Positions 21,955-43,615 of a stretch of DNA of 61,825 bases are shown piece by piece. The translations under genes were made by a program, and so were the position numbers. The stretch is from a virus. Position 1 is the stretch's first letter. The number at the start of each line of letters is the position of its first letter. Under the pieces are notes generated by a model. It searched no databases and was not told where the DNA came from. It worked only from the letters and a program-made list of their open reading frames with translations. The stretch spans positions 1 through 61,825 of IMG/VR virus record IMGVR_UViG_3300010397_000010. One strand, 5' to 3'.

Positions 21955-22752
21955 TCATTTCCAGGGAGCCCCGAGGTGACCTACCCACCCATCGCAGGTA
22001 TCATTCCCCCCGGCTGCCTTGAAGTAATCATAAGGGATAAGAAGGTTTCCCGAAAGGCCCCATTTATCACCCCACGAATTGCGAACTTTAAATGCTCCCT
22101 TTTTCAATCGATCATCATACCCATAAACGAGCATCTCATGTCCTCCCACAGGGGATTCATTCGGATGGGGAATCGGGAGCATTCCATCCTTAGCCACCTT
22201 TTCACCTTCGATGGCTTGATAGACTGGAACTCCGATAGTGCAACAATATCCACTCGCCAACACAGACTTCATCGTATACATCCCTTGATCGATCAGAATG
22301 CGATGATACGCCCCAATTTTGAACGATTCCCCATTCAAGATCATCTCATCTGAAGGGGGAGAGGTGATGAGAGTATCTGAGAATGGATTGATTGAATCGA
22401 GACAGATTCCGATTTGATTCAACACCCTGAAGATGGTGCGGGAGTCTGATCCATCGTCAGCCGGAAAGGAGCCATCCTTCATCCTCTCTTCAGCGTAAAG
22501 GAAGAGAGCAGAGAAGAAGGGATCACTCAAGTCCTTAATCGGAAAGTATTGAGCGAACTCCCGATAAAGCCAATCCATGAATCCCGCCCCCGCTTGACCT
22601 GTACAGGAGCCTGATTGCCCTTGATCCCTCACCGGCCCGAGCTTCGACAAGAGGTTAATGGAAGCCGGTAGTTTTCTCAGCGACCTTAGGGCGAGGTGAT
22701 CCCTTTTGTCCTCCACATCCTTTTTGACATTAAACACTCTCTTAATGGGCAT
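21955..22752 (-). CDS. Papain-like (C1) cysteine peptidase
   Basis: 265 residues. The full active site is visible: Gln44 and Cys50 in VRDQGQSGSCTGQAG, His205 in PVGGHEMLVYGYDD and Asn225 in KVRNSWGDKWG. There is no signal peptide and only a short leader (about 25 residues) before the core, so no long propeptide. C1 peptidases occur in some phages and bacteria, but their phage role is unsettled. It lies after the lysis genes in the late operon. Host-protein degradation, virion maturation or help in lysis are all possible. Confidence 0.85.
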   Translation of the reverse strand: MPIKRVFNVKKDVEDKRDHLALRSLRKLPASINLLSKLGPVRDQGQSGSCTGQAGAGFMDWLYREFAQYFPIKDLSDPFFSALFLYAEERMKDGSFPADDGSDSRTIFRVLNQIGICLDSINPFSDTLITSPPSDEMILNGESFKIGAYHRILIDQGMYTMKSVLASGYCCTIGVPVYQAIEGEKVAKDGMLPIPHPNESPVGGHEMLVYGYDDRLKKGAFKVRNSWGDKWGLSGNLLIPYDYFKAAGGNDTCDGWVGHLGAPWK

Positions 22753-22755
22753 TTA

Positions 22756-23292
22756 CTAAATCTCCGCCTTCGGCAATCCGATACGCTTCGCTGTGTTATT
22801 CCATTGGGCCTTATAGGCTCCTTGGGCTGATTGGAGCAGATGGGGCTTCCTCAGCTTCGCCTGACCCTTATAAGGATTCCAATCAAGGTGAGCGGATAGC
22901 CTTTGAGTTTGCGCAGTAGGTTTCATGGCTGAGATCACCGCCGAGAGTGCGGCTACCAGGATGGCAATCAGCGGAGAGTAGATGGATGTCTGAGGGATCA
23001 CAGCCAACACCGCTTGAAGAGTATCAATGGCGCTCAGGACGATATCCACAGTCGATCCATTACTCCACTTCGCCTCTGCCGCCTGAAGGGCCGCGATAGC
23101 GTTTGAGAGGGAAGGGAGCCATTGAGCATTCGAGTCAGCTACCTTCAAAATGGCTAACGCTGAATCAATAGCTGTGTTAAGGAGAGCCTTAGCGTTCACC
23201 GCGCATCCTTCCTCCATCAACATCGAGGGTACGAGGAGAGTCAGAGTAGCTCCCTTTAGGGCAGTAAGCGTGAAATCGCGTCGAGTTATCAT
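22756..23292 (-). CDS. Putative TAT-signal exported protein, 178 aa
   Basis: The start at 23292 overlaps the holin-like gene's stop (TAATG) and follows GTGAGGT. The N-terminus MITRRDFTLTALKGATLTLL is a twin-arginine leader (TRRDF plus a hydrophobic stretch), followed by EEGC, a poor lipobox. The mature part has Ala-rich helices (LLNTAIDSALAILKVAD) and a hydrophobic segment (IYSPLIAILVAALSAVISAM). A longer frame to 23463 exists but runs into the preceding gene. Located among lysis genes; a spanin-like role is possible but unsupported by motif. Confidence 0.65.
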   Translation of the reverse strand: MITRRDFTLTALKGATLTLLVPSMLMEEGCAVNAKALLNTAIDSALAILKVADSNAQWLPSLSNAIAALQAAEAKWSNGSTVDIVLSAIDTLQAVLAVIPQTSIYSPLIAILVAALSAVISAMKPTAQTQRLSAHLDWNPYKGQAKLRKPHLLQSAQGAYKAQWNNTAKRIGLPKAEI

Positions 23293-23507: not shown

Positions 23508-23864
23508 TCACGACTTTTGGATCGTGGATAATGCGAATAGTTTACTCCCCTTTGAGATAATCAGATCGACGCACTGCTCAGAAAAAACGCCATAAATGGC
23601 CGCGCTGAACGGCCCTATGGGGCCGGAAAGGTGAGCATGGATTCCAACCCATGCGAGCACGTCGTTCAGAGGCGTGGTGTCTCGCCAAATCCAAAGGAAC
23701 AGCCCGAGCGATACGACAAAGTTTATGATTGCATCCCCCGCATGACCCATCAGGTAGCTATACACGCTGTTCCAGGGCGTGTACCTATTGTCTGCCGAGA
23801 GAGTTGCTCTCTTAGTCAACGACCCTAAACCGCCGATAAGGTAGAAGATGAGCAGAGTGGTCAT
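23508..23864 (-). CDS. Membrane protein in lysis cassette, 118 aa
   Basis: It starts at 23864, overlapping the endolysin stop by four bases. The hydrophobic N-terminus (TTLLIFYLIGGLG), a second span (AIINFVVSLGLFLWIW) and a weaker third suggest a multi-span inner-membrane protein. It may be a holin or antiholin partner of the 67-residue protein downstream. No conserved family was recognised. Confidence 0.6.
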   Translation of the reverse strand: MTTLLIFYLIGGLGSLTKRATLSADNRYTPWNSVYSYLMGHAGDAIINFVVSLGLFLWIWRDTTPLNDVLAWVGIHAHLSGPIGPFSAAIYGVFSEQCVDLIISKGSKLFALSTIQKS

Positions 23865-24352
23865 GCAGGTATGTCTCTCGCTCGATTGAGTAATCCTTCG
23901 AGTGGATATGTCCTACCTTCCGAAGCTGCGAATGCAGCGGCCCTTTTGTAATGTTCAATCTGAGCGTGGCATATTGCATCTATGAGGATATCTGGATTAC
24001 ATGAATTCATGCGTTCTATGGTAAGAGGGCCGATATTGCCATCCTGTCTAACGTTGACGAGCTTTTGGATGTCCTTGGCAAATCCCCTTCCGATATTCAC
24101 CAAACAATCCATCGCTTTCGACGCGACCTCTTGGGAGGTTAATTGGTCGAGCTTAAAAGGAAGCCAATATTCGGTGAAATAAATCTCCTTCGCCCCTTTA
24201 AGTGTCAAATGTTCAACATCAACATGAGGGTGATAGCGTTGAGAGATGCCCCATTTAGTCAGCCTTCCTCCTCTATCCCAAGTAACTTTGCCGGATAAAG
24301 TGGAATCCTCATGCTTCATGACGAACTTGAATGCGGGCTCAAACTCAGCCAT
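23861..24352 (-). CDS. Endolysin, GH108 N-acetylmuramidase
   Basis: 163 residues. FEPAFKFVMKHEDST carries the catalytic Glu (E15), and TWDRGGRLTKWGISQRYHP matches the conserved GG-x-T-x-WGI loop of glycoside hydrolase family 108. QDGNIGPLTIERMNS is the C-terminal peptidoglycan-binding (PG_binding_3) half. It cleaves the MurNAc-GlcNAc bond during lysis. ATG 24352 is preferred over an in-frame TTG six bases upstream, because GGGGGA stands at the right distance. Confidence 0.88.
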   Translation of the reverse strand: MAEFEPAFKFVMKHEDSTLSGKVTWDRGGRLTKWGISQRYHPHVDVEHLTLKGAKEIYFTEYWLPFKLDQLTSQEVASKAMDCLVNIGRGFAKDIQKLVNVRQDGNIGPLTIERMNSCNPDILIDAICHAQIEHYKRAAAFAASEGRTYPLEGLLNRARDIPA

Positions 24353-24354
24353 TC

Positions 24355-24558
24355 TCAATCCCCCTTCACCATCACCCCGAGTTCATGGAACTCAGCCGAA
24401 TCCTTCTCAGTCAACAGCTTATCGAATGGGATTTCAGGGTCAAGCGGGATACAGGTTCTAGGGAGAGTAATCGGCCCATCACACCTTAAACGATGTCCGG
24501 CCCATATGGCAGCACTCCAGAACACATCCCCACAAGCCGCGCACTTAACTCTTTGCAT
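24355..24558 (-). CDS. Small zinc-ribbon protein, 67 aa
   Basis: ATG 24558 with AGGAG upstream. MQRVKCAACGDVFWSAAIWA...RLRC gives C-x2-C and a later Cys. The remainder includes a TCIPLDPEIPF loop. It ends two bases before the endolysin ATG. Unknown function in the lysis operon. Confidence 0.6.
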   Translation of the reverse strand: MQRVKCAACGDVFWSAAIWAGHRLRCDGPITLPRTCIPLDPEIPFDKLLTEKDSAEFHELGVMVKGD

Positions 24559-24782: not shown

Positions 24783-25028
24783 CTAGTCCGAATCTTTATT
24801 GAGATCGCTATACCTACGTTGGGCCATTCGCTTTTCCATCTCGTCAATCTTGTCCCATAGTCGAGTAATCAACTCTTGTAACGATTTCAACTGTGTCGAG
24901 TAGACCGCGTTTTGATTTGCGATGGCCGTCATCAAATCTTCTTTGCTGACGGAGTGAGTTGCCCAGGCTCCAATTAGGGTTATAACCACTCCCCCTAGAA
25001 ACGCCGAAATCGTAATCCATACATCCAC
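24783..25028 (-). CDS. Membrane-anchored coiled-coil protein, 81 aa
   Basis: GTG start at 25028 with AGGTAGG upstream. One N-terminal span (WITISAFLGGVVITLIGAWA) is followed by a charged helix (LKSLQELITRLWDKIDEMEK) that is probably coiled coil. The layout resembles XhlA-type holin accessories or inner-membrane spanins. It sits at the head of the lysis cassette. Confidence 0.6.
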   Translation of the reverse strand: MDVWITISAFLGGVVITLIGAWATHSVSKEDLMTAIANQNAVYSTQLKSLQELITRLWDKIDEMEKRMAQRRYSDLNKDSD

Positions 25029-25052: not shown

Positions 25053-25385
25053 CTAAATTTTGTTCGCGCTGTTAACTTTTGGCGGCACATCGTCTCCGCA
25101 CGTCACCCACCTGCCGTCAACATAAAGCCCATCGCCACCAGAGAGTTCACATTCAGCTTCATAGTCCATCAGAGGAAAGGGCTCATTCGTCACCGTTTCC
25201 GCGCATTCCTCCGAACACTTAGGACAGTCGCAAATCCATGTGGTGTAGCCAGGACACACTATCTCGCGACACTTATCATTGGCGTTGTTCGTACCGTCTG
25301 CGTAAGTTGTGGTGCCATGATCGACTCCAGCGTTGAGCAATGGTGGTGCGAGCACGAAGATGAGAAACAGAACAAATGGTTTCAT
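25053..25385 (-). CDS. Secreted Cys-rich protein, 110 aa
   Basis: Start MKPFVLFLIFVLAPPLLNAG at 25385 is a Sec signal peptide with a likely cut after LNA. The mature part holds nine Cys (KCREIVCPG, CDCPKCSEEC, CELSGG, TCGDD), suggesting a disulphide-rich extracytoplasmic protein. The ATG overlaps the upstream stop by four bases. Unknown family; the fourth exported protein in this cluster. Confidence 0.6.
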   Translation of the reverse strand: MKPFVLFLIFVLAPPLLNAGVDHGTTTYADGTNNANDKCREIVCPGYTTWICDCPKCSEECAETVTNEPFPLMDYEAECELSGGDGLYVDGRWVTCGDDVPPKVNSANKI

Positions 25386-26908
25386 CGACGTGCCCTTTTC
25401 TTCGCCTTCACATGGCGATGGGTTCTCATGGCTGCTCCACTGCAATTGCTCATCATTAAGACTCTCATCTTATTCCAAGGGATGACATTTAATGCTCCAT
25501 AAGCATTAGAATCGTAAGGTACGCCAACGGATGACCATTTCGGCACGCCTGCGTTCTGATCCGTTACCCCATACACCACCACAACGCCTGAGAAATCCCG
25601 ATTATACGCACCATAAGTTTGGAGGGCTTTAGCGATAATCTTGATCCACTGCGGCCAGTTCTGCGCGTCCACATTGAATGAAGGATCGAGTTGAATTCTA
25701 GCTCCCTGCGGAAGCGCGGAGGTGCTCCCTGCAATCTCATCGTGATGAGTAGCGGGGCAAGCGAAATATCCTCCCGTCCTATTGTAAGGAGTCGCGATAG
25801 CTAAGGCGTGGTCGATATGACCTGCGGCAATCTCCTCTGGCCTAACCGCTCCACCAAGGCCGCTGAATCCCGCCGCGACGTTGCTCAGACAATGCTGACC
25901 ACTTGGGCAAGCCGCACCCCATCCTTTGAGGTCATTAATATAAGCTCCTGCGGCTGACCATGAGCCATTCGAATATGAGGCTTCCCACATATCCAGCTCC
26001 TTCCCTGCGTAAGGGGAACCATCTTGCGCCATGTAGGCCACGACTAAATGATGATCGCTCCCGGTAGCGGGGACAGTTCCAGAAGGAATCGGGAAATTAA
26101 GCGTCATCCCTACAGGCCCATTACAATACTGAGTACACTTGACGGAGTAAATCGGATCTCCCGCCTTCGCATAAGCGAGGGCCATCCCATATCCCCCATT
26201 AGAGAAGGTGATATTCTTCGAGAGCTGATTCAGAATGCTCTGTTGGATCATCGTCGAAGAGTTAGGATCGATGGATGGATTCGGAGGGATAGGGGTATTC
26301 CAAAAGCTAGTCGGAGAGTAGATTCCAGAGGTATTCGGAGGAGGAGTAGGAGTTGATCCATTGTTGATGGTGAAGGTGGCGGTATCAACCTCACCTGAGG
26401 GAGACACTTTCTGCGTAATGGTGTGCTGACCATTTCCTACTTTAGTGGTGTCCCAAGGATTAGCGATTGAGGTTGATGCTGAAGTGGCATAGTCATACGG
26501 CGCTAATGTCTCACAATGCGTCGCCGTTCCGCTCATCGATGGATTATCGAGCCAATAACACACACCACTGATTCCGACTGGGTTAGGATTCGATGGATTT
26601 CCCGAAGGAGCGGTGAATATGTAGGCGTTCCCTCCAATCGTCAATCCATTCAGCCCAATCCCCCCACTCCGATTAGCCTGACCGCTTTCCGCTAGCGTAT
26701 AAGTGGCGGTGGGCGAGGGAATGGGAGTCGAGGTAATCGTGCACGTTGACAAAGAAGTGCATGAGCATGAGCAATTCGCCCCCGCTATTGAGCATGAACA
26801 AGATGGAGCGATAGCCCTAAGAATACGATCTATGGGAGAATGATGCTTTTTTGCCGCTACTCCGCTCATTGTGAGCAATAAAATTGTAATCGCAATCTTA
26901 ATCTTCAT
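25382..26908 (-). CDS. Secreted protein with Cys-rich start and FWNTPI-type domain, 508 aa
   Basis: Sec signal MKIKIAITILLLTMSGVAA. A Cys-dense stretch follows (SCSCSIAGANCSCSCTSL) and then an Ig-like region ending in a Pro-rich linker (NNGSTPTPPPNT). The C-terminal half begins SGIYSPTSFWNTPIPPNP. It contains TGSDHHLVVAYMAQDG and GGAVRPEEIAAGHIDHALAI...PATHHDE, a pattern I associate with exported proteins of soil bacteria, possibly a carbohydrate-active domain (unproven). It ends with a basic tail rich in Lys and Arg. Confidence 0.7.
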   Translation of the reverse strand: MKIKIAITILLLTMSGVAAKKHHSPIDRILRAIAPSCSCSIAGANCSCSCTSLSTCTITSTPIPSPTATYTLAESGQANRSGGIGLNGLTIGGNAYIFTAPSGNPSNPNPVGISGVCYWLDNPSMSGTATHCETLAPYDYATSASTSIANPWDTTKVGNGQHTITQKVSPSGEVDTATFTINNGSTPTPPPNTSGIYSPTSFWNTPIPPNPSIDPNSSTMIQQSILNQLSKNITFSNGGYGMALAYAKAGDPIYSVKCTQYCNGPVGMTLNFPIPSGTVPATGSDHHLVVAYMAQDGSPYAGKELDMWEASYSNGSWSAAGAYINDLKGWGAACPSGQHCLSNVAAGFSGLGGAVRPEEIAAGHIDHALAIATPYNRTGGYFACPATHHDEIAGSTSALPQGARIQLDPSFNVDAQNWPQWIKIIAKALQTYGAYNRDFSGVVVVYGVTDQNAGVPKWSSVGVPYDSNAYGALNVIPWNKMRVLMMSNCSGAAMRTHRHVKAKKRARR

Positions 26909-26917
26909 CTTTATTCC

Positions 26918-27139
26918 TCAACTTTCTTTATTCCTCAGAAACTCTGCCAGCTTGTTCGCTAACTCCCTGCTGAGGGAGTAATCAGGGTCATCGTGGAGTT
27001 TGCACGTTATCTCCCCAGTGTGATCCCCCGCGCCATCCGTAAGCAAAACCGATGCAGGGGCAATGGCGATCATCTTTCCATCTACCAACTCTTCGGGTTG
27101 GTAGACGGGGAACTTAGGTTTCATTATCGGAATCTTCAT
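26918..27139 (-). CDS. Hypothetical protein, 73 aa
   Basis: Starts MKIPIMKPKFPVYQPEELVD behind GAGGGAAAGA; soluble, with a C-terminal helix (SLSRELANKLAEFLRNK). It has no signal peptide, unlike both neighbours. Function unknown. Confidence 0.55.
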   Translation of the reverse strand: MKIPIMKPKFPVYQPEELVDGKMIAIAPASVLLTDGAGDHTGEITCKLHDDPDYSLSRELANKLAEFLRNKES

Positions 27140-27151
27140 TCTTTCCCTCTC

Positions 27152-28396
27152 TCATTGCCATTGCGTCTTTCCGCTCCACCGCGTCTTGCCGCTGATCTGC
27201 GTGATTGGCGGAAAGATTGAATACTGGCAACTTGTCACCGCGCTTTGACTCCATCCAGAAGTGGTCGCCGCTGATCTCAAATAGCCAGTTGCGCTAACCG
27301 TCACCGGAACGCTATAGCTCGTCGTCGGGGTGCAGGTGTTAATTGTGTCTTGACAATAAACGATGGTCGGACTGGGTGAAGTGCTCGCCAGCGCGGATGT
27401 GAACGTATAGTGGGCCGAGGTGCCCCCTACAGGAGTGCAGGTAGGAGCTACCGTCACCAGAGTATAAGTGGCACTCACTACTGAACTATTGGTGTCTCCT
27501 GCAAGCGTTCCGAGAGCTTTAATGGTCTCGCTCACGCTAACGCTTACCGGAGTGCTATAGGTAGAGCCAGCCGAGCAAGTGCCTGGAGTCGCTGCTGCCG
27601 GAGTGCTCCCATCCGTGGTGTAGCAAATCGTCGCCCCACCTGTTGTGGTGCTGATGGTCACAGATTGAGCGGCATTATAGCTACCAGCGACGGGCGAGAA
27701 TGTTGGATCATCTACGGGCGGTGCGCCTTTTAAAGTGACGATCACGCATCCGTAAAATCTTGCGTTGCTGGATGATGCCGTGGCCGCGTAAGCTCCGGTA
27801 GAAGATACGTTGCGATCTTCCAGAATCATCAGCGGAGGGCCACCGCTTAGGTTCCCCTGCCTAGACGTATAATTGGTACCTGCGGTGATGGTGGAAACAC
27901 TCCCATTGGAGTAGCAGCCGCCTACCAGCAACTCAGTGGCTGCTGTGGTGGTTGCGGTGTTCGAGGTAGTCCAGCTTGTAGTTGATGTGCTATCGGTAGA
28001 GATCGCGCTTTTGTCAACATTGACGAACCCACCGGAATACTGCTCTGCAGCACATCCAAGATTGCCTGAGGTAGCGTTGCAGGTGATTACTTCACTGGCA
28101 TTGGTGGTTCCGAAGGTGGCACAGTAGAGCCAAACTTTTGCGTTGTTTCCACCATTGACCGGCCCTCCGCACACGCTGAACGTGTCGCTATTAGTGTCTG
28201 TGACGGAGGATGTTGAGCTGCTGCCTGCGCTCGTTCCAACCATCACCACAACGTTGTTGCCAGCCGTGGCACTGATCGCAGGGATATTGCAAGTGGCGCT
28301 GCTCGTGCCAGAGCACTTGTTTCCGTTGACGGGGGTCTGCGCCAGCGCGAGCGCAGATAGCCACAAGAGAGCCACGACAATCGGCGCAATCCGCAT
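27152..28396 (-). CDS. Secreted adhesin-like protein with chitobiase C-terminal-type domain, 414 aa
   Basis: ATG 28396 overlaps the tailspike stop (TAATG). Signal peptide MRIAPIVVALLWLSALALA, then QTP. The first domain (NNVVVMVGTSAG...VTDTNSDTFSVC) is of a type I know mainly from exported acidobacterial and related proteins. The second, PTFSPVAGSYNAAQSVTIST then ATICYTTDGSTP, is a CHB_HEX_C_1 module (carbohydrate-associated). The C-terminus repeats GKTRW/GKTQW. A surface or matrix protein is likely. It may have been taken from the host. Confidence 0.7.
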   Translation of the reverse strand: MRIAPIVVALLWLSALALAQTPVNGNKCSGTSSATCNIPAISATAGNNVVVMVGTSAGSSSTSSVTDTNSDTFSVCGGPVNGGNNAKVWLYCATFGTTNASEVITCNATSGNLGCAAEQYSGGFVNVDKSAISTDSTSTTSWTTSNTATTTAATELLVGGCYSNGSVSTITAGTNYTSRQGNLSGGPPLMILEDRNVSSTGAYAATASSSNARFYGCVIVTLKGAPPVDDPTFSPVAGSYNAAQSVTISTTTGGATICYTTDGSTPAAATPGTCSAGSTYSTPVSVSVSETIKALGTLAGDTNSSVVSATYTLVTVAPTCTPVGGTSAHYTFTSALASTSPSPTIVYCQDTINTCTPTTSYSVPVTVSATGYLRSAATTSGWSQSAVTSCQYSIFPPITQISGKTRWSGKTQWQ

Positions 28397-31300
28397 TAGT
28401 TCACCACCTGATAGCTGAAGCACTCTGGATTAGTGATAGGGGCTACTCCAATTGTGAGTGTAAAACTAGTAGCTGCCGTCCTCGCCGTAACCTGCCAAGG
28501 AGCACTCAGGAGTGCAGTATTACAGGTTACGCCAAGTGCGGTGCCCAAGGTTGCATCATTATTTATCAGAATGACGCTATTGGCCGTCACTGCTGTAGTG
28601 TTCACTGTGATACTGGTTGATCCCGCCGGAACATTAAACATCCCCACTGGAGCCGATCCACACACCGCTGGAGATGCAGACGAGGCGCATTTCGTCCCAA
28701 ACACGAGATGATTAGTGTCGAAGATCGTGTTCCCCGTTGCGCTGCTATTCAGGCTGAGTGGTGTGGTGATGCTCGTCGGATCAATGTTATTTCCGTCGAT
28801 CGTATTGTTGTTGCTGGTTGAATCGACGGCAACTCCCGTAGTGGCCGCACCATATAGCTTGTTGCTTGAAATGATATTCCTTGTCGAAGCAATCAGATCA
28901 ACCAAGGTGGACGCATTGCCTGACTTACCGTAAACCATGTTCCCAGTTACAAGGTTGTTCGATGTGGTGTCCAGAACAATCGTTTTTTGATTGCTGCCGA
29001 TGGTGGTGTTGCGAATGCTATTTCCACTCCCTGTGTGAACATAGAATATGTCTGAGGTCGTGGCACCCTTCTGCCCGATCAGTCCATCGAACCCGATACC
29101 CGTACTCCCTTCAATGTCGATGACATGAGAAGAGCTGCCCGTATTCGATGTCCACCCTCCAAGGAATTCTATGTTATACGCTTGGCTTGAAGATCCTCCG
29201 GTGACGTTATTCACATAAATACAAGCCACACCACAGCCATCCAACACATAGTTCGTAATGTGAATGTCGTCGCACGCAAATGATGTCCCGGTGCAGTTCG
29301 TCGGGTTGATGTAGACGCCATAATCCGTTGTAGCTGTCTCTAAACCATCAATGAAAATGTCATTGATCGCCGTCCCGTAGAGATAAAACCCCTTCATGTG
29401 ATTAGCCGATGAAGCGCCGTTATCGGCCACGAAGTCGTGAGTGAAAAACGTCGAGTTACTTGGTAAACCGCTCGTCGTATCCACACAGAACCCACACGTT
29501 GGCGTGGTACCAACAGTGTCGTTTTGTGCGACATTATCAATTACATTCGCGTTCACCGCGCTGTAGAAGTAAAAGTTCTGCACATGGCGATCAGACTCCA
29601 CTCCGCGAATTTCACCGAACATCGTGTATGTGAACGAGACGCCGGTTGCTGTACCCGTAGGCGCTACAGTCCTAATCGCCGTAAAGTCTTTGAGATAAGG
29701 GCCAAAGAGTGTAGTTCCAGAGGTTCCCGCAACCGATACAATCGTGCTGGTTGCACTATTTGACACGATCCGTGACGAGCCAGAATAGGCCCACCGTGCT
29801 CCAGTCCAGCCTGATTTCGCAGTTCCCTCAATGCCCACAAAGTTAGGGTTGCCATTCGACACAGAGATAGTGAGCGTCGAAGAACCGATGAGATAGTCTC
29901 TATCCAGAAGCTTTAAATGGCCACCTAAACTCAATGCGTTGATGGCGTTCTGCAAAGCCACATGGTCATCGGTGCCGGTTGTGCCGTTCCAATCTCCTTT
30001 CGCGTTCCACCACTCTCCAAACACTTCATTAGTCGCTGTGCCGAACTTGATCGCTCCCGTTCCACTCAGGCTGAACACTTGAGACATCGGAGCAGAGAAT
30101 CCTCCATTGATTGTGACCGTGGTGGAGGTTGGGACAACGAAGAATCCGCCCTCCATGATGACTGGAACAGAGAAGGTCAGGTTCGAGGCGATCTTGTATC
30201 CGCTCCCACTAACCTGAGTGAAGATAATTCCGCCAGTACAGGTCGATTGTGCTGTGTTCAATAAGGCTCGATTATCAGTGGTGCCATCATCCAACGCCCC
30301 AAGGGCCGCAGCGGAGCATTTCAATCCCGATGGAGCGCACGAGCCTTGCGTCGATCCGAGGTAACAGTGTGAACTTCCATCCCCACCGATCCACTGCGAA
30401 GCGTCGTAGCCACTGGGAAGAAGCACATTCCAGTAAGTTGCGTTCGGAGGAGCATTGCCAGTGGTCGAGGCGATAGCGATGTAATGAACGCCGCTGGAAG
30501 TGACCGCATCGTTGATAGCATAGGCCGTCGCTCCGTTGTATGCGCCCTTGCCGCTTGGAGTGCCCCACGTCTGCTTCGTCATATCCAGTCGGGTGAGCGA
30601 CCCGTCGTTGACTTGGAAAGGCTCGCTGCTGGTCACGACTCCCGCCGTGGTTATTCCGTCGTCAATATGCGAAGTAGAAGAGAGAGTCGAACTTGATGCC
30701 CACGTCGTCAGATAGCCGGTTGTGCCGGAGCCGGTGACTTTACCGTTGAGCTGCGTCTGGATGCTGCTGGTTGCATCGTTATAGGCCATTACGGTTGGCG
30801 TTACTCCATCCACTGTTTTGCCCGTCAGGGTGGATGGAATGTCCGCATCCGTAAGGGATTGATACCCCGGCGCGGCGGTTGAGCCGGTGTTATTTCCCCA
30901 AAACTTATGCGCGCCAGCGGTGGCGAGAGTGGCTGTCACTGCTCCAGTCGAACTGCTATTACTCAAAAGTGATCCATCGCCACTGAAGCTGCTCACGCCG
31001 CCAGAAGTTCCGTTGCTTGCTGCCGTGATCCTGCCCTTGGCATCTACGGTCAGATTCGTATTCGTGTAGCTTCCTGGCGACACGGCGGTATCGTTTAACG
31101 AGATGTTCGGAGTTGCTCCACCGCTTGAAGCAATCGGAGCGGTCGCAGTGACGTTCGTAACGCTTCCCGCGCTCGCTGCGTGCCATACTCCATCTGCGCC
31201 GCAATACTGAGTAGAGCTTCCCCCTGTAGGACAGGTCACAACCTGGGAGTTGGCGCTGCTCGCGCTGGTGATCGGTGTCCCGCCATTGATTGCGATTGAT

Positions 31301-32727
31301 GGCGCGGTCACTGCTCCTCCAAAGCTAACTTTTCCTGTTCCCGTCTTGATAGCGTAGTCCGTCGATCCCGCTCCCTGATCGTCGATCAACAGAGCATCGG
31401 ATTCCGTCGATCCACCATGAACATCCCCGATCTGGATTCCTTTTAAGGTCTGCCCATGAATCGCCCCTCCCATCTCATTTCGAATATCAATCCCTCTTAC
31501 ATCGCCACTCCCGAAGCCAGTGTTCAAGCCCATTTTTAGGCCAATGGTGTCAATGCCTGCGCCGGTTGCGGGATTATAGGCGTCGATAGCGACTGGGTTT
31601 ACATCCAAACTTAGGGCCGTTGTATTGTCGCTACGGAAGCCAGTCACCCCTCCATTAGAAAAGTTGTTACTCTGGTAATCCCCGCCCAAACTTATGATCC
31701 CGTCATTGTTGTGAACAATAAAAGGAATCGCCGCCCCAGTAGAGAAGATGTTCACCTGCGTCTCATGATGAGTTGGGAGAGGGCAAGACGCGCCGCACTT
31801 GAATACAGTTTGCCCACCTTCCACCTTGAGCGCGAAGTCGGTCGAGCCTGCTCCCTGATCGAGAATATGCAATGCATCCGATTCCGTCGAAGCTCCGCTA
31901 ACATCTCCAATCTCAGCCCCCACCTTATTGACCGCAAGATCAGGCATACTCTCCACAAGGACGCCATACAAGTCTTGCGGAGTTCCCGAATACTTCTTCG
32001 CCTGAACATCAACTCCGATAGCGGATTTCCCATCCACCGCCTCTGCCTCGACGATTAAAGGAGTCGAGTCTGATGTGGGATTGTCCGTGTCCCGCGTAAG
32101 GATTGATAAGCCATCTCCCGAGGTAGATGTAAGGTTCGCGCTCGATCCATCCGTTATGAACAAATCTCCATTGACGTTATCCACCACGAGGGAGCCGCCA
32201 CTATCGGCTCCAACCTCTAACCTTCCGCTTACGCGACCGAAAATAGCATCCCCACTCCCCCCAAATGTCCCAAGGGGATCGTTGAATTGGAGAGAGAATT
32301 GAGGGACTCCGGGTGTCGCTCCCCCACCTCCACCCCCGCTGCTCAAGGCTACTTTGATCGTCACCGGATTTAGGTATACATTAGGAGCAATCCCCCCACT
32401 CAGCACGACATCATAAGTTTGCCCGATGGCTGCATAAGCGAGCCAATATCCAGGTTGAGTCGATGAAGAGTTGTTAGCTGTGAATGGATTCCCGAGATGA
32501 GTGCCAATTGCGTCAGAATAGAGAGTAGCCTTAGTCAGAGTGCCCGTTAGGTAGATTGTCACTGAGCAGGAAGGGATGACTCCATCCAGATAGTTCGAGC
32601 TACTCAATCCCGACACTACAGCCTTAGTAGCTCCCTTTTGGCACCACCCATTAAGGGGCGCTACTTGGGCCATTCCCATAAGAGAAAAAGTCATTATGCC
32701 TAACAGGACTAATATCGCCTTCTTCAT
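28396..32727 (-). CDS. Tailspike/tail fibre-like protein with a Sec signal peptide, 1443 aa
   Basis: ATG 32727 (GGGAG six bases upstream; a TTG one codon earlier is less likely). It begins with a clear signal peptide, MKKAILVLLGIMTFSLMGMA. Further on are a Gly-run linker (SGGGGGGATPG), two copies of an STESDAL...DQGAGSTD unit, and tail fibre-type repeats (SLNDTAVSPGSYTNTNLTVD). From about residue 840 a right-handed beta-helix follows (DDGTTDNRALLNTAQSTC and many NNTIDGN-like turns). Beta-helix spikes degrade or bind host polysaccharide. A signal peptide on such a protein is unexpected, since virion parts assemble in the cytoplasm. Confidence 0.8.
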   Translation of the reverse strand: MKKAILVLLGIMTFSLMGMAQVAPLNGWCQKGATKAVVSGLSSSNYLDGVIPSCSVTIYLTGTLTKATLYSDAIGTHLGNPFTANNSSSTQPGYWLAYAAIGQTYDVVLSGGIAPNVYLNPVTIKVALSSGGGGGGATPGVPQFSLQFNDPLGTFGGSGDAIFGRVSGRLEVGADSGGSLVVDNVNGDLFITDGSSANLTSTSGDGLSILTRDTDNPTSDSTPLIVEAEAVDGKSAIGVDVQAKKYSGTPQDLYGVLVESMPDLAVNKVGAEIGDVSGASTESDALHILDQGAGSTDFALKVEGGQTVFKCGASCPLPTHHETQVNIFSTGAAIPFIVHNNDGIISLGGDYQSNNFSNGGVTGFRSDNTTALSLDVNPVAIDAYNPATGAGIDTIGLKMGLNTGFGSGDVRGIDIRNEMGGAIHGQTLKGIQIGDVHGGSTESDALLIDDQGAGSTDYAIKTGTGKVSFGGAVTAPSIAINGGTPITSASSANSQVVTCPTGGSSTQYCGADGVWHAASAGSVTNVTATAPIASSGGATPNISLNDTAVSPGSYTNTNLTVDAKGRITAASNGTSGGVSSFSGDGSLLSNSSSTGAVTATLATAGAHKFWGNNTGSTAAPGYQSLTDADIPSTLTGKTVDGVTPTVMAYNDATSSIQTQLNGKVTGSGTTGYLTTWASSSTLSSTSHIDDGITTAGVVTSSEPFQVNDGSLTRLDMTKQTWGTPSGKGAYNGATAYAINDAVTSSGVHYIAIASTTGNAPPNATYWNVLLPSGYDASQWIGGDGSSHCYLGSTQGSCAPSGLKCSAAALGALDDGTTDNRALLNTAQSTCTGGIIFTQVSGSGYKIASNLTFSVPVIMEGGFFVVPTSTTVTINGGFSAPMSQVFSLSGTGAIKFGTATNEVFGEWWNAKGDWNGTTGTDDHVALQNAINALSLGGHLKLLDRDYLIGSSTLTISVSNGNPNFVGIEGTAKSGWTGARWAYSGSSRIVSNSATSTIVSVAGTSGTTLFGPYLKDFTAIRTVAPTGTATGVSFTYTMFGEIRGVESDRHVQNFYFYSAVNANVIDNVAQNDTVGTTPTCGFCVDTTSGLPSNSTFFTHDFVADNGASSANHMKGFYLYGTAINDIFIDGLETATTDYGVYINPTNCTGTSFACDDIHITNYVLDGCGVACIYVNNVTGGSSSQAYNIEFLGGWTSNTGSSSHVIDIEGSTGIGFDGLIGQKGATTSDIFYVHTGSGNSIRNTTIGSNQKTIVLDTTSNNLVTGNMVYGKSGNASTLVDLIASTRNIISSNKLYGAATTGVAVDSTSNNNTIDGNNIDPTSITTPLSLNSSATGNTIFDTNHLVFGTKCASSASPAVCGSAPVGMFNVPAGSTSITVNTTAVTANSVILINNDATLGTALGVTCNTALLSAPWQVTARTAATSFTLTIGVAPITNPECFSYQVVN

Positions 32728-32743
32728 CAAAACTCCCTCACCA

Positions 32744-32782
32744 TAAAAAATGGCCTTTAGAGACTTAAATCTCTAAGGCCAT
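32744..32782 (-). terminator. Intrinsic terminator before the tailspike gene
   Basis: On the minus strand TGGCCTTAGAGA and TCTCTAAAGGCCA form a long stem (one bulge) followed directly by TTTTTTATGG. It ends the virion-gene transcript that passes 32848, only about 17 bases before the start of the tailspike gene, which must then rely on read-through or its own promoter. The rest of the 32783-32847 gap shows no gene. Confidence 0.8.
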
Positions 32783-32847: not shown

Positions 32848-33795
32848 TTAAGGAGAAATAGTCGAGCTAAGGGGCCCTCCCACCATAGAGGATGCAACAC
32901 TTTTCCCTTTCCTCCTCTCCCATCCCACTTCAGAAGGAGTTATCGAGGTTGGGTGATGGCATATTTTGGCAAAGGGACAGGGGGAGTAATGGAAGCAGGC
33001 TGACCTTCTCATTGAGAGCGATTTCTTCTCAATCTCATCCGCAATCTGAGTCATTTCGGCTAATATCTCCCCCCTCTTAGGCGGAGAGTAGTCCACATTG
33101 ATCGTATGCACTATCCCCTCGAATGCGTTATCGGACTGCATCAGTTTGAGCCATTCCAAGGCGCTCAGATCAGTCTGCTCCCTATATCGTCGCTGCCACC
33201 TCGGGCCGAATTTCTTTACATGAATCGGCTGGATTCTCATCCCTCCAGTCTCAGGATGAGTGAAGGAGGTTGTCCACGGGGATGGACGATAACCCTTCCT
33301 AAGCTGCCCAATTTCGATAATGTTGATAAACATAGGAAGTTTCATCGAGTAAATATCGCCTATAGTGCGCCATGACGATAATTCCTCCTGCTCCCTCAAG
33401 GGAGTCCAATTCGCCGTCAATACCACTCTTCGAAGGCGATTATCAGGCAGAATGAATGACAATGGCTGGTAGCTGAATCCACTAACCTTCGTCCACGGAC
33501 ATAGCTTCCACGCTCCCGTCGCGCCCACCAAATAAGCACAAATAGTCTCGATTAAGTTGGCGTGATGAGTCGCTTGGGCATAGATGTCCCATCCATTGAT
33601 ATCGAGCCCCGGATTGGCTGCGAGAGAGATGAAGTGTTCTCTCGCTCCAGTAGGGGAGTTGGTTAGCAATCCCACCCTAAGGGACTCATTGAGCGCGGAA
33701 TGGAGGGGGATGCGAGGAAGCTCGAATTTAGATGACCAAGTTTGCTTCCTTGGGCATTGATCGAACCTCATCAGATCGTCTGAATCGAGCATCAT
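32848..33795 (-). CDS. RecB/Cas4-like protein lacking visible catalytic residues
   Basis: 315 residues. DLMRFDQCPRKQTWSSKF and the C-terminal RSACFHYSPCPFAKICHHP are the Fe-S cysteine elements of the same family as the nuclease at 17647. Between them, the strand that should hold D-x-K reads FINIIEIGQLRKG and lacks the Lys. The fold and metal site thus seem kept, while nuclease activity may be lost. It lies at the end of the virion genes, overlapping the preceding one by four bases. A structural or packaging-related role is an inference. Confidence 0.65.
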   Translation of the reverse strand: MMLDSDDLMRFDQCPRKQTWSSKFELPRIPLHSALNESLRVGLLTNSPTGAREHFISLAANPGLDINGWDIYAQATHHANLIETICAYLVGATGAWKLCPWTKVSGFSYQPLSFILPDNRLRRVVLTANWTPLREQEELSSWRTIGDIYSMKLPMFINIIEIGQLRKGYRPSPWTTSFTHPETGGMRIQPIHVKKFGPRWQRRYREQTDLSALEWLKLMQSDNAFEGIVHTINVDYSPPKRGEILAEMTQIADEIEKKSLSMRRSACFHYSPCPFAKICHHPTSITPSEVGWERRKGKSVASSMVGGPLSSTISP

Positions 33796-35210
33796 TGCAA
33801 TAATGACTGAATCGCATGACCCGTAGGGAGCGAAGGAGTGTGGCTCGCTTCAGGTTCCATGTCAGGCATGAAGAGATATCGAATAGGGAGTGAATTGATA
33901 GTCTGACTTCCTAATGCGCCCGAGATAGCCTCTCTCGCCGTCCGTTCTCCCTGAGTAAGTTGGGAAGGAAATCCCATTCCAATCTTCTGATTAGCGGTCG
34001 CAAGGGGGTCGATAAATTTAGTCGGGCTCGCCCCGAGAGTAGCTCCTGCGCTTGCCCTCATTGGATGCAGATATTCTCCAATATGGAGCTTTTCTCTCAA
34101 CAGCGCCCCTTTAGACTTCGCGGATTGAGCGATAAGTCTATCCTTCTCCTTCTGGACATTATCAGCTACATCATAGAGGATAGATTGCTTTCTCTTTAAG
34201 TCCTGAAAATATCCAGCAGGCTTTCCCGCTTGCTGATCTGCCGTTGAGTAGAGCATTCCATTCAACGACTCATTAGCAGCTTGATCTGCCGCGAGTTCAG
34301 CATCCAGCTTGATCTTCGCCGCTGCGCTCGACGGAGCTGCGTTGCGATATCCTCTGATTTTCTTCGCCAGCATTGAGCGCTGTTCGTCGAGAGTGCCTAT
34401 TGTCCACCCTTCCTTCTCAAATTCCGCCGCCCTCTTACGAAGCGAATTAGCCGTAGCCCTTCCTTCAGCAGTCAATTCCATTGCGGGGGTGATTTTGGCT
34501 CGAATCGCATTTCCTACTGCGTTAGCCGCAACAGGTTGATTAGCGATTGGAAATAGCGCTTTCCCATACTCATCCTGCAAGCGGCCATTCGTGTCATTAA
34601 CCACTTTCTCAAATTCTCCAATAGTCTTAGGCGACTGGCCCCCACTTGCGGCGACCGTTTTATCGAAGTCGGGAATCAAATTAGCTACTGCGCTCTCTCC
34701 CGCCTCAATACCCGCCCCCGAACTCAATCTAGCTGCCCTTGAAGCAGGCCGGAGCCATGAGGCGACCTTGGCGATCCCCAATCCTCCGAGTTGATAAGCT
34801 CCCTGCTCTAGTCCCGAGAGAGTAATATCCTTCGCCGCCTTCGATGAAGGCTGGTTGCCGTATTTCTCAGGCTCCAGAAGCCGCTGCATTGACCTTCCTG
34901 CCGATCCCCCGAGCGCAGCCATCCCAACTCCGGCAGCAGGGCCAGCAGCCTCACCTACCGCCCCGAACGCAGTTCCCATCGTCATTGGGAGATTCTCGGT
35001 CTGGTATCCACTCAGCGCATCTCCAATGGCCTTCCGTCCCTCCCACGCTCCCTTTAGAGCGCCCATTAAGGTTGGGTGGTCAGTAGGCAATGAAGATTGA
35101 GCCTGTTGAGGGGGGAATTTAGCTCGCAGCACATTCTTAATGGAATCATCATCCATCGAGTCGGGAAACTCGCCAATGGTGCCGTCAGGAAGTTTAATCT
35201 GCTTGGGCAT
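33792..35210 (-). CDS. Putative internal virion / ejection protein, 472 aa
   Basis: The N-terminus IKLPDGTIGEFPDSMDDDSI is a small motif that recurs at the start of phage ejection and other virion proteins. A Gly/Ala-rich, membrane-active region follows (GEAAGPAAGVGMAALGGSAG), then long helices. Third of three Ala/Gly-rich genes after the tail-appendage genes, as in the ejection-protein set (gp7, gp20, gp16) of P22. TAATG overlap with the previous gene. Confidence 0.65.
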   Translation of the reverse strand: MPKQIKLPDGTIGEFPDSMDDDSIKNVLRAKFPPQQAQSSLPTDHPTLMGALKGAWEGRKAIGDALSGYQTENLPMTMGTAFGAVGEAAGPAAGVGMAALGGSAGRSMQRLLEPEKYGNQPSSKAAKDITLSGLEQGAYQLGGLGIAKVASWLRPASRAARLSSGAGIEAGESAVANLIPDFDKTVAASGGQSPKTIGEFEKVVNDTNGRLQDEYGKALFPIANQPVAANAVGNAIRAKITPAMELTAEGRATANSLRKRAAEFEKEGWTIGTLDEQRSMLAKKIRGYRNAAPSSAAAKIKLDAELAADQAANESLNGMLYSTADQQAGKPAGYFQDLKRKQSILYDVADNVQKEKDRLIAQSAKSKGALLREKLHIGEYLHPMRASAGATLGASPTKFIDPLATANQKIGMGFPSQLTQGERTAREAISGALGSQTINSLPIRYLFMPDMEPEASHTPSLPTGHAIQSLLQ

Positions 35211-37570
35211 TACTCAAAGTTTCCAGTCTGAGGATTGTATTTCCTGATCGTTCCCGCCTTAGCAGGAGCTTTAGGAGCGCTAGTTGAAGTCGGAATCCCC
35301 TTCGCCTGCCTCGCCCCTTCGCGCCACCAATCGAGATACTTCTTGCTGATCTCAGGATATCCCGACATTGCCGCTGATGCAGTGTTTAGGGTAGCCGAGA
35401 GTTGATCCCTGAAGTTCTTCGAACTCGCTACGTTATAGATTGGAGCCGCCCTTACGAGGGTCTGGATTGAACTCTGTGCCGCTGAGCCCTTTGTGGCCGA
35501 GCGAAGGGCGGATAAGTCCTCTTGGAATCCCTGAAGTCTAGCCAATAGCTCCATCCCCTCATCTCCCCCAAGACGAGCGACTTCATTTCTTGCGTCCACA
35601 TTGGCGTTCCTAATGCGTTCCTGAGACCATCCAGTGACTCCGATGGCCGTTCCGAGGGTCTGCATAAAGCTCGGATTAGGCTCGGTGCCGGGAATTGCGA
35701 GCGAATTCAACGTGAGCGCCTTATTGAGCGCAGTCGCTAACTCGGGATTGTCGTACATATGGGCATATTCCCATATCGGCTTGTCCCCATTCTGCCCGAA
35801 CACCTGAGCCGCTACAGTATCCATCGCCGCCACAACGGGCTTTGTCGTCTTGCCTTGAGATTGGAATGTCCCTGATGCGAATGGCGAGGGCTGAGGGGGC
35901 ATCTGCCCCCTTTGAACAGGAGTGAAGGATTGAGCAGGGACAGTAGGAGTAGGAGAAGCCTTCTGAATCGCTTTCGCAGGAGCCCTCCCTCCGCTCGCGG
36001 GGAGCGCCGCAGGAGCTACTGAAGGAGCCACTGAAGGCGCACTCTTCGCAGAAGGAGAAGTCATCCCCACCGTCGCCGGAGTGCTCGTACCTGTCATCTT
36101 GAGCTTCTCGCCCGGATTCATCCCAGGGACTTCGTGAGTGCTAACGGTGCCTACCTTTGCTTGCCCCAAAGGAGTCGCCGTTACGGGAGAAATCTCTCCA
36201 ATCTCAGGCACTTGGTAGACTTCATTTCCAATAGTGGCCTGTCTCGTTTTCTGATCCACTAGGAGATGATAAGTATTCGACCCCTGACGGATCGTTTCTA
36301 ATTTGGTCGAAGGAGGGGCACTCTGGAGCATCTCCTTCGTAATATCGTGCCCCTGCATATCCTTGTAGGAAGTGCCGGGAATTAAGTCCATCACCTTGAT
36401 CGCATTCGCAGGATCAGTCGAGCCGAGAACATAAGTCCTCCCCGTAGTTCCCTGCTCGATAGCATGATAACCGGGAGGGATATTGTCTATATCCGTAATG
36501 TTCATCCATTGAACATCCCCAGTGGAGTCATTCTTCATCTGCTTCCATACAGGAGTTGGAGGCTTTACTGGCAATCCTGCTTCATGCAGGGCGAGATTCT
36601 TCAGGACATGCTTTTCATCCTCAGGATCTAACTTGAGGGCCTTAATGCGCTGAACATTTGCCGCATGAAGCGCGGTCGCTTGGACTTGGGATCGGGCAAA
36701 TTTCTGCTGCGCTTCCGAAGGAGTTAGGGCGATTGCTTCAGCCGCTCCTGAGGGCATCCCCCCCGAGGGCGCAATAGGATGAGCCATCACCCCTAGCCGC
36801 TTTGCCACTCTCGGCAGAAGTCCCGCCTTCCCTTGATTGGCCGCGATTTGAGCATTCGTCGCCGCTAAGGGAGCCGTGGAGGGCATTTGAGGCGAGTTGG
36901 CTGACACTGGAGCGCTAGGAGCTGCATCAGGAGTCGCATCAGGAGTCGCAATAGGCGCTGTTCCCCCCGAAGGCATGGAAGGGGCATTAGAGGAAATCGG
37001 CCCGCTCGGGGCCGATACCGGAGCATTCGACGTTGCTGCTGGCGGTGGAGGGAGCGCCGATAGATTCGACTTCTGCAATTGCTGCGAGAGCGAGTTAATC
37101 TGTCCCGAAGCATAGTCGAGATCGGGATGCTCCGCAGTCGAGAATGGATGGACACTAGGGGGCGCGGAAGCGGTAGGAGATGGAGAAGGCGCTCCACTCG
37201 CCGCAGCAGGGGATGATGGGAGAACTCCATCGGGAGGCGCAGTGATAGCGTTCTGAGCGTCCTTTTGCTTTCCCGTTATCAAGCCATGAATCGCGTCGAT
37301 AAAGTTGGCATGATGCTCCGGAGCGTAAACTTTCTGCTGTTGTTCAACGGCCCATTTCTTCCGCGCAAATGCTTTCTCGAAATCGGGATTATTGACCGAT
37401 TGCCCATTTTCATCGGTAATCTTCTCAGGAGGAAGCTCTTGATTGGCAACACTCTCCAACTGACTAGCGAGAAATTTCCGCTGAAGCCCATGAAGCGCCG
37501 TAGCTTCCTGCTGCTTGCGCTGCATCCGCTCCGCTGATTGCTGTTCGAGGAATTGAGCCGGACTCGCCAT
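35210..37570 (-). CDS. Putative ejection/internal virion protein, Pro/Ala-rich, 786 aa
   Basis: A helical Gln-rich start (LEQQSAERMQRKQQEATALH) is followed by long disordered Pro-Ser-Ala stretches. The C-terminal helical part ends TIRKYNPQTGNFE. There are no coiled coils of tape-measure length and no membrane spans. By order and composition it matches the large ejection proteins of short-tailed phages. Exact function inferred. Confidence 0.6.
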   Translation of the reverse strand: MASPAQFLEQQSAERMQRKQQEATALHGLQRKFLASQLESVANQELPPEKITDENGQSVNNPDFEKAFARKKWAVEQQQKVYAPEHHANFIDAIHGLITGKQKDAQNAITAPPDGVLPSSPAAASGAPSPSPTASAPPSVHPFSTAEHPDLDYASGQINSLSQQLQKSNLSALPPPPAATSNAPVSAPSGPISSNAPSMPSGGTAPIATPDATPDAAPSAPVSANSPQMPSTAPLAATNAQIAANQGKAGLLPRVAKRLGVMAHPIAPSGGMPSGAAEAIALTPSEAQQKFARSQVQATALHAANVQRIKALKLDPEDEKHVLKNLALHEAGLPVKPPTPVWKQMKNDSTGDVQWMNITDIDNIPPGYHAIEQGTTGRTYVLGSTDPANAIKVMDLIPGTSYKDMQGHDITKEMLQSAPPSTKLETIRQGSNTYHLLVDQKTRQATIGNEVYQVPEIGEISPVTATPLGQAKVGTVSTHEVPGMNPGEKLKMTGTSTPATVGMTSPSAKSAPSVAPSVAPAALPASGGRAPAKAIQKASPTPTVPAQSFTPVQRGQMPPQPSPFASGTFQSQGKTTKPVVAAMDTVAAQVFGQNGDKPIWEYAHMYDNPELATALNKALTLNSLAIPGTEPNPSFMQTLGTAIGVTGWSQERIRNANVDARNEVARLGGDEGMELLARLQGFQEDLSALRSATKGSAAQSSIQTLVRAAPIYNVASSKNFRDQLSATLNTASAAMSGYPEISKKYLDWWREGARQAKGIPTSTSAPKAPAKAGTIRKYNPQTGNFE

Positions 37571-38131: not shown

Positions 38132-39769
38132 CTAACGATCCTCTGAAAATGAGAGCTGCCCATACATCGTCCCACTTCCGGTCTGAGTCTGCCCACACAA
38201 CGAGTAGACATCCTGAGTCGTTCCTGCGATATCAAGACTGAAGGGGATCGACAACAAATTAAGCCCCGTTAGTATTCCAATCCCTCCCCCTAAGTTTTGA
38301 GGCTGAATATACCCACTAGCCACAACCACTCCCCCCGAGATAGCCGTTGCAGAGGTATCGGCCTGCATTCCTGAGTAGGTAGTATTCACATCAGCAAACG
38401 ATGCTCCCGTGAGGGTGCCATTGTAGACTAATGCCCATCTCGCAGCATTATTGGAAGCATTAAGGATGGTTCCCGAGAGTAAGTTGTAAACAACTCTATT
38501 CGTAATGCTATTTATAGTCAGCCTCGGACGAATAGACAGCATTGGCTTTAGCGTTGTAGTGGCCGAGAGCCCAGTTATTCCCTGATCTGCACTAAAGATG
38601 AGGATATTGGGAGAATCTTCTCCCCCTTCCGAGATAATCGACCCGCAAATGGCGAGCATTGTTGATGTTCCAGCGGGAGCAGAAGATGGATCATTCGCAA
38701 TCTGCCATCTTATCGGCAGCACGGCTGAGTTAGCGTAAGGAGTCGAGATTGTGTTCGCGTTCTGGAATTGATGGCAATAATACAAGAGTCCATTTACTAC
38801 GAAGCCAAATCTAACTCTCCCCACCCCGAGCCATTGAAGATCAATCGCAAATATCTGAGTTTTGGTGAAATCTAAAGTGATCCCACTTACCCCAGTCCCA
38901 TCCATCTTGTCGATATTCCACGATGATTGGAGAGCGAAAGTATCGACTGGAGAGCCTGATATGGATGATCTCTGCACCACCGCAGGCAATCCAGTCGCCC
39001 CACCTGCGTTCGGCCCCGATGTGAAGCCATTCATCGAGAAAAACATCCCATCGTTCGCATCGAAGTAGCCAATCTGCTTGCGAACGAATTGAGTGTATGC
39101 CCCAAGCGCCCCCGTCATATTGATGAGCTGAGACTTTCCAGGCTCATATCGATAATATCCATGAGATTGGACTATCGTCCCCGCGTTCGCTCCAGTTCCC
39201 CCCGTCGATAGCGTTAAGGAGGATTGATTGGATGTCTTAGTCGCGGTGCCAGTGCCGGTGTTGGATATCTGAACTGTTAAAGGATTCTGATCGTAAATAA
39301 AGTTAGTAGTGAATAGGAGGGTAGGAGTGCTAACTCTCCCCCTGCCGAAAGCATCCGCCGCTCCAGGGCCGAAATTAACTAGAGCATTCTTGGTCGAGTC
39401 AAGATTCATCGGCCCGGAGTCGATCACCGCATGAAGATTAGTTCCCGTTGATTGCTGAACCGTTACAGGATTCGTAACTGAAGTTAAGGTGCCTGAGTCG
39501 AGAACTGAGTGAAGATTAGCCCCCGTCCCCTGCACCACAGTTACATTACCCGTAACGGCTGTAGTTGAGCCCGAATCGGTTACGGTATGCAGATTTGTTC
39601 CGGTAGTCTGAACCGCCGTTACATTCCCCGTTACAGCAGTCGTTGAGCCTGTTTGGGCAACTACCTTTTGATTTCCCTTATTATCCAACTCAACCGGGGA
39701 GATATCCCCATCGCTCAGCGTAGGAGGAGTGGTTTGGAATATGCCTTGATTAAAGGGGCTAAATGCCAT
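38132..39769 (-). CDS. Virion appendage protein with tandem repeats, 545 aa
   Basis: Residues 41-118 are three 26-residue repeats (TAVTGNVT...NLH..xDS). The rest is beta-rich, with GYYRYEPGKSQLINMTGALG and IRWQIANDPSSAPAGT, similar to phage capsid- or tail-attached fibre proteins. It sits between a small fibre-like gene and the ejection set. Probably a decoration or tail-appendage protein; the partner is unknown. Confidence 0.65.
   Translation of the reverse strand: MAFSPFNQGIFQTTPPTLSDGDISPVELDNKGNQKVVAQTGSTTAVTGNVTAVQTTGTNLHTVTDSGSTTAVTGNVTVVQGTGANLHSVLDSGTLTSVTNPVTVQQSTGTNLHAVIDSGPMNLDSTKNALVNFGPGAADAFGRGRVSTPTLLFTTNFIYDQNPLTVQISNTGTGTATKTSNQSSLTLSTGGTGANAGTIVQSHGYYRYEPGKSQLINMTGALGAYTQFVRKQIGYFDANDGMFFSMNGFTSGPNAGGATGLPAVVQRSSISGSPVDTFALQSSWNIDKMDGTGVSGITLDFTKTQIFAIDLQWLGVGRVRFGFVVNGLLYYCHQFQNANTISTPYANSAVLPIRWQIANDPSSAPAGTSTMLAICGSIISEGGEDSPNILIFSADQGITGLSATTTLKPMLSIRPRLTINSITNRVVYNLLSGTILNASNNAARWALVYNGTLTGASFADVNTTYSGMQADTSATAISGGVVVASGYIQPQNLGGGIGILTGLNLLSIPFSLDIAGTTQDVYSLCGQTQTGSGTMYGQLSFSEDR
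39416..39649 (-). repeat. Three tandem 78-bp in-frame repeats
   Basis: Each unit encodes 26 residues of the form GSTTAVTGNVTxVQxTGxNLHxVxDS. The third unit is the most diverged (TSVTNPVT). Copy number could change by recombination and alter the length of the appendage protein. Confidence 0.7.
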
Positions 39770-43605: not shown

Positions 43606-43615
43606 CCTTCATCCC

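Follow-up and report, generated by a model that had tools for sequence, protein, structure and literature searches.

Does a tailed phage send its tailspike out of the cytoplasm before fitting it to the virion? The question was raised by five consecutive late genes, all on the minus strand and transcribed from 32727 to 25053, in the 61,825-base virus record IMGVR_UViG_3300010397_000010 (the window; its own coordinates are used throughout). The first of these encodes a fibre-like protein of 1443 amino acids (28396-32727). The textbook view is that tailed-phage virions are cytoplasmic products and that their fibres are added before lysis. The original prediction held that this protein and its partners may be exported to the host envelope, for surface remodelling, superinfection exclusion, matrix breakdown or virion maturation outside the membrane. 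Export is strongly supported by the conserved leaders and cysteine tests described below. Among the proposed roles, virion maturation is preferred, given a head-binding domain that cleavage would expose, a hypervariable body and a block of genes between tail and lysis functions; the other three roles gained little support by comparison. We consider it probable that the tailspikes are Sec preproteins that undergo oxidation in the periplasm and are joined to virions at lysis or later, and the best explanation of 28396-32727 within this reading is that it is the main tailspike/receptor-binding protein of the phage.

Sec signal peptides (SPs) were called in four of the five genes, as had been predicted, each with an ATG start, a positive n-region followed by hydrophobic residues, and a cleavage site of AxA type. 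The leaders, with the predicted cleavage site marked by an arrow, were MKKAILVLLGIMTFSLMGMA↓QV for 28396-32727, MRIAPIVVALLWLSALALA↓QT for 27152-28396, MKIKIAITILLLTMSGVAA↓KK for 25382-26908 and MKPFVLFLIFVLAPPLLNA↓GV for 25053-25385. In the 1443-amino acid preprotein, which has a Shine-Dalgarno (SD) sequence and start codon, the SP comprises residues 1-20 (32668-32727, cleavage GMA↓Q). The fifth gene (26918-27139, minus strand, 73 amino acids) has no SP by the same scorer, a custom rule-based one that weighs the n-, h- and c-regions and AxA; it recognised the OmpA and MalE leaders, missed PhoA and rejected LacI, and is thus conservative. Its background was 5/143 among spurious overlapping open reading frames (ORFs) of the window, and 6/75 accepted ORFs were called positive, three of them within the cluster (25053-25385 was dropped from this count by the overlap rule). 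The occurrence of four positives in five genes gave a hypergeometric p=1.3e-4. A further call at 40291-43605 is probably false (GTG 81 bases in, no SD). A lipobox Cys at +1, as in a superinfection-exclusion lipoprotein, is absent from all four cluster leaders.

The leader is shared by relatives of the phage. Distant homologues of its terminase, portal, capsid, adaptor and tail genes are found in Tunturi_1 and Tunturi_2, cultured podophages of an Acidobacteriota host (PMC11924767). TerL matched Tunturi with 362 bits and 32% identity and the next phage with 66 bits, and by this similarity an Acidobacteriota host is likely for the source phage as well. The alignment of the 1443-amino acid protein with Tunturi_2 gp12 begins at residue 1 and covers the SP, and the same start-to-start alignment was obtained with gp12 of Tunturi_1. 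In Tunturi_2 SPs are carried by gp12, gp13, gp14, gp16 and gp17; among the 84 proteins of 60 or more amino acids in its annotation, 9 score positive, the four outside gp12-17 being lipoprotein-like or small. Tunturi_3 and Tunturi_4 share the host genus and have Cys-poor fibres, and none of their structural genes tested has an SP; on this ground a host-wide compositional artefact was rejected as the source of the signal.

A profile of the N-terminal domain (N-domain) retrieved 50 loci from IMG/VR, with an SP before the domain in 47/50 (40 of the 47 non-redundant). Because such a search could favour leader-bearing proteins, the test was repeated blind to the fibre, anchored on homologues of the tail adaptor (46012-47004, minus strand; 37% to Tunturi_2 gp11). 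An SP-bearing ORF of at least 300 amino acids lay within 10 kb downstream of the adaptor in 35/40 non-redundant loci, a low count, as at least two ORFs printed as leaderless, L127 and L133, carry the leader further in. On the upstream, packaging/capsid side of the same loci 0/166 ORFs of at least 250 amino acids were positive, which disposes of scorer false positives as the explanation; the adaptor alignment A8 was too diverse for scanning. Start sites in relatives that exclude the leader had been named as evidence that would speak against export, and the check went the other way, the conserved starts including it. Among 50,697 phage records the N-terminal region matched Tunturi_1 and Tunturi_2 only, among the matches listed (20 of 40 records), the remaining listed ones being matches to the body. 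The adaptor gene lies from immediately to 5.6 kb upstream of the spike gene on the same strand in 29 relatives, and a homologue of a head or tail gene of the source phage or Tunturi is nearby in 35/39 loci. Q stands at +1 in 31/64 SPs, compared with 38% of Granulicella and 14% of E. coli SPs; the direction is that of Granulicella, and with samples this small it was not taken as a mark of host type.

The cysteine content of the proteins bears on export separately. Among ORFs from related loci (64 non-redundant with an SP, 144 without), mature Cys content was 1.83% with an SP versus 0.78% without (p 8e-8), and the mature count was even in 51/63 of the former (p 7e-7) versus 48/98 of the latter (p 0.92); the loci are mutually related, and these p-values, like those that follow, overstate independence. 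The excess of even counts was seen both in N-domain fibres (24/29, p 0.0006) and in other SP-bearing ORFs (27/34, p 0.0008). Complete disulfide pairing predicts even counts, and the counts therefore fit with it. Most members have a pair of Cys within the N-domain, spaced by 25 residues and in the usual case placed at +9 and +34 relative to the A↓Q site. This pair is present in 38/40 non-redundant SP-bearing N-domains (37 by script, plus L052 with a wider spacing) and in 0/6 leaderless ones (L060, L064, L065, L139, L159 and L162; Fisher 3e-6). L159 is a natural experiment for the coupling of leader and cysteines: its leaderless N-domain starts with MSIGA, both Cys are replaced (Ser, Ala), and zero Cys occur in 353 amino acids. 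The N-domain tree divides the SP-bearing members from the SP-less spikes (99/98); the SP-less L060 is the one member that falls among the SP-bearing ones. By these two independent tests, Cys content and parity on the one hand and the tie of the Cys pair to the SP on the other, the export predicted for the SP-bearing proteins is very probably real. As a separate observation, a further type of fibre, marked by a V(I/Q/V)VGNYG-like motif at its N-terminus, apparently exists with an SP (A↓QVIVGN) and without one (MSGQVQVGDYG) in related phages (L102, L108, L109 and L116 versus L118, L126, L127 and L131), and offers a second natural test of export.

The mature N-domain (amino acids 21-130; 32338-32667, with Cys29 and Cys54) was modelled by AlphaFold2 (AF2) with a mean confidence (pLDDT) of 88. 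Structural matches of the model (VIA) were the Pan3 tail spike (9vyg_o; Z 8.0, rmsd 3.0, 82 aligned), Pam1 (7eeq_A; Z 7.5) and the P22 tail complex (9jg6_U; Z 6.0), with unrelated immunoglobulin-like and fibronectin-like folds ranking between Pan3/Pam1 and P22; the matching predicted viral structures were pectate-lyase-type spikes. The family profile, searched against 177,635 PDB sequences, placed the Pan3 tail spike (E 3.5e-4) and the Pam1 tailspike head-binding domain (E 0.014) at the top. The assignment amounts to more than a modest Z, because the sequence profile independently ranks the same PDB entries first; hhalign of the profile against SP-less spikes gave 95.5%. The domain that cleavage would expose is thus, as modelled, the podoviral tailspike head-binding fold.

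Beyond this domain the protein diverges. The N-domain is common to 1596/1640 ordered pairs, and any alignment beyond amino acid 250 was found in 75/1640; the loci were retrieved via the N-domain, and only the divergence of the body is independent evidence. The body beyond residue 250 is hypervariable, as in receptor-binding proteins. As sequence evidence on the beta-helix that had been predicted, its residues 810-984 (29776-30300, minus strand) are similar to the tailspike/depolymerase of Xanthomonas phage PBR31 (28.9% identity, E 1e-5), a podophage in which the spike takes the same slot, after the internal virion proteins and before lysis, and in both phages the slot lies between tail and lysis genes. 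Protein-family searches found no lytic family in the fibre. A bacterial origin of the fibre was set aside, because the N-domain had no relative in the 84,980 bacterial and archaeal genomes scanned by pattern.

Taken as a sequence of events, the leader would direct the chain to the periplasm, where host signal peptidase would cut at A↓Q and the cysteines would pair as disulfides, and cleavage would leave the virion-attachment domain at the mature N-terminus. Finished spikes would be held in the periplasm until the products of the neighbouring lysis genes rupture the inner membrane, and would then dock on spike-less virions, so that final assembly would take place at or after lysis. The neighbouring SP genes would encode accessory spike or envelope-acting proteins, likewise Sec preproteins. 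The leaders, the cysteine pairing pattern, the N-domain fold and the gene slot are computational observations; cleavage, periplasmic storage and docking we infer, the last because the mature chain would begin with the attachment domain, lysis would be the first moment at which spikes and virions share a compartment, and the block adjoins the lysis genes. In vitro, P22 heads can accept tailspikes, and late addition is therefore physically plausible. Extended to the relatives, the evidence leans slightly towards a whole clade of tailed double-stranded DNA phages, probably of Acidobacteriota hosts, that completes its virions outside the cytoplasm with Sec-exported, processed, disulfide-bonded, periplasm-stored spikes fitted at lysis.

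Other fates of the exported proteins were weighed. They might never join virions and act as secreted or periplasmic effectors that block receptors, exclude superinfecting phages, or degrade extracellular polysaccharide and aid the spread of progeny. Such a role would suit the well-supported Sec export, the 50-54% identity of the C-terminal domain of the 508-amino acid partner (25382-26908) to SP-bearing proteins of metagenome-assembled genomes (MAGs) of soil Chloroflexota, and a 110-amino acid partner (25053-25385) in which protein-family searches recognised no virion domain. We think it unlikely, however: the most conserved part of the fibre is the domain that other podophages use for virion binding, the genes occupy the tailspike slot across the clade, and every large fibre/spike-like gene of the Tunturi_2 gp12-17 block has an SP, so that few SP-less receptor-binding candidates are left. 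Incomplete export or a second start might also divide the product into a cytoplasmic pool that builds virions and an exported pool that acts on the envelope, and codons 12, 17 and 19 of the 1443-amino acid fibre are indeed in-frame ATGs, a start at codon 19 producing MAQVAPLN. Only 1/41 family members, however, combines an internal start with an SD-like motif, on which ground a leaderless second start was rejected; Tunturi_2 gp12 has no internal start in its leader stretch, and the preponderance of even Cys counts points to selection for complete oxidation, which makes a dual fate quite doubtful. A proven SP is not known to us for any tail fibre, and the present case is built on sequence, which would favour a leader that is no functional SP at all but a hydrophobic segment by which a cytoplasmic protein is anchored in the virion, or else a product of wrong start choice. 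The clear n-, h- and c-regions, the frequent Q at +1, the Cys pair that is missing whenever the leader is missing and the agreeing parity test make this very improbable, and Tunturi_2 gp12 starts 9 bases past the end of gp11, which leaves little room for another start.

Periplasmic maturation of the spike thus remains the preferred reading, and several points weigh against it. The SP calls come from a home-made rule, the VIA Z of 8.0 is by itself modest for a fold and leans on the profile match, and the host is inferred via TerL similarity. Trimeric spikes that cross Sec and refold in the periplasm may need help. An SP-less structural protein (38132-39769, minus strand, 545 amino acids, phrog_1645), for which the genome comparison gave no Tunturi_2 match, could be a second receptor-binding protein. 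Cleavage, disulfides and the presence of spikes in virions are read from sequence rather than from protein data, and the main text of the Tunturi paper contains no virion mass spectrometry (PMC11924767).

Compared with known systems, the spike resembles podoviral tailspikes (Pan3, Pam1, P22 and PBR31) in N-domain fold and profile, in its conserved anchor and variable body and in its gene position, with internal virion proteins on one side and lysis genes on the other. It differs in the SP before the domain and the Cys pair inside, whereas the PBR31 spike is SP-less and related SP-less N-domains are without the pair; by its sequence it appears to depart from the class in one respect, cytoplasmic synthesis without an export signal. 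Filamentous phages export a receptor-binding protein, pIII, which likewise has a cleavable SP and is stabilised by disulfides. However, pIII is the membrane-anchored protein of an inovirus that assembles by extrusion, and the source phage is a double-stranded DNA podovirus with terminase, portal and other podoviral genes. Sec-exported endolysins such as Lys44 of phage fOg44 are known (PMC6116005); they share with the spike a tailed phage, host Sec, a cleavable SP (here by rule) and a late protein acting outside the cytoplasm, but are lytic enzymes, whereas the cargo here is of the receptor-binding/tailspike type. In open-access literature, judged mostly by titles and the opening of abstracts, no SP-bearing tail fibre or spike of a tailed phage was found, in agreement with the original prediction, for which no such described system was known; a rumen phage paper, as far as seen, reports SPs in two Bacteroides phages and does not tie them to fibres (PMC5723332).

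It thus appears that a widespread clade of soil podoviruses exports and oxidises the protein that forms its receptor-binding module. If true, this would be a two-compartment assembly pathway undescribed for tailed phages, and would explain the cysteine-rich spikes. An SP, a head-binding domain and a Cys pair together provide a sequence rule for spotting such phages, in whose annotation a large beta-rich ORF that carries an SP might be mistaken for a host protein. Periplasmic expression would be a sensible choice for recombinant production of such spikes, and the reading is testable now, as Tunturi_1, Tunturi_2 and their host are in culture.

The remaining genes of the cluster, also on the minus strand, are smaller. 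The 414-amino acid SP protein (27152-28396) has 14 mature Cys, matches the repeats of Tunturi gp17 at 51-70% and contains a chitobiase C-terminal domain (27476-27694; CHB_HEX_C_1, E 3.3e-13); such domains had been predicted among the group, and the search confirmed one in this gene and in no other. In the 508-amino acid protein a WNTP domain begins at residue 197 (phrog_17388, 1.5e-11) and recurs in minor tail proteins of Gordonia phages as well as in proteins secreted by bacteria. The Gordonia versions, about 30% identical, are SP-less, whereas its closest relatives are the secreted bacterial ones. Its C-terminal domain was modelled by AF2 with pLDDT 82 and had no significant Foldseek match; an MltA-like transglycosylase fold, top by VIA (Z 3.1-4.6), was too weak to use. 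The C-terminal tail of the protein, THRHVKAKKRARR, is strongly basic. The Cys-rich member that had been predicted is the 110-amino acid SP protein, with 8 Cys. A C-terminal GK/GP...GK/GQ motif, a possible attachment tag, was found in three SP-bearing proteins, 27152-28396 (SGKTRWSGKTQWQ), Tunturi_2 gp17 (GGKLSFGQSVSH) and L013 12615-14546 (GPIQMIGKVTIP), and in none of the SP-less set.

Upstream of the cluster lies an intrinsic terminator (32750-32782, minus strand; -18.8 kcal/mol, z -5.05, then T6), which the consensus scanner did not list and whose stem is bulged. The predicted terminator with its T6 tail is thus real and would separate the transcripts, but a functional isolation of the group from the virion genes did not hold, as the group closely follows the tail adaptor gene in most relatives. 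Its upstream neighbours are genes for internal virion proteins (33792-37570, minus strand), of which 35210-37570 matches Tunturi gp37 and 33792-35210 is assigned by position and size, and further up are the tail genes homologous to Tunturi gp31 and gp32 (40291-45279, minus strand), leaderless at their usual starts. Downstream, the lysis block starts with a candidate spanin (24783-25028, minus strand; weak Rz-like match, phrog_739, E 0.0017) and includes an endolysin with GH108 and peptidoglycan-binding domains by protein-family matches (23861-24358, minus strand). Adjoining the lysis genes, 22756-23292 (minus strand) begins with MITRRDFTLTALKGATLTLLVPSMLMEEGC and has a twin-arginine (Tat)-like RRxFT motif and a Cys further on; its product is possibly exported. 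Just past the block, 21955-22752 (minus strand) encodes a peptidase (phrog_16701, 1.5e-14; papain-like by eye) with no obvious leader. In Tunturi_2 (L008), gp44, gp72 and gp79 have lipoprotein-like leaders and lie on the other strand; gp79, annotated as a tail protein, looks like a lipoprotein and is a superinfection-exclusion candidate. Between the portal and capsid genes of the window, 50967-51446 (minus strand) encodes a homologue of the Tunturi HNH endonucleases gp30 and gp77.

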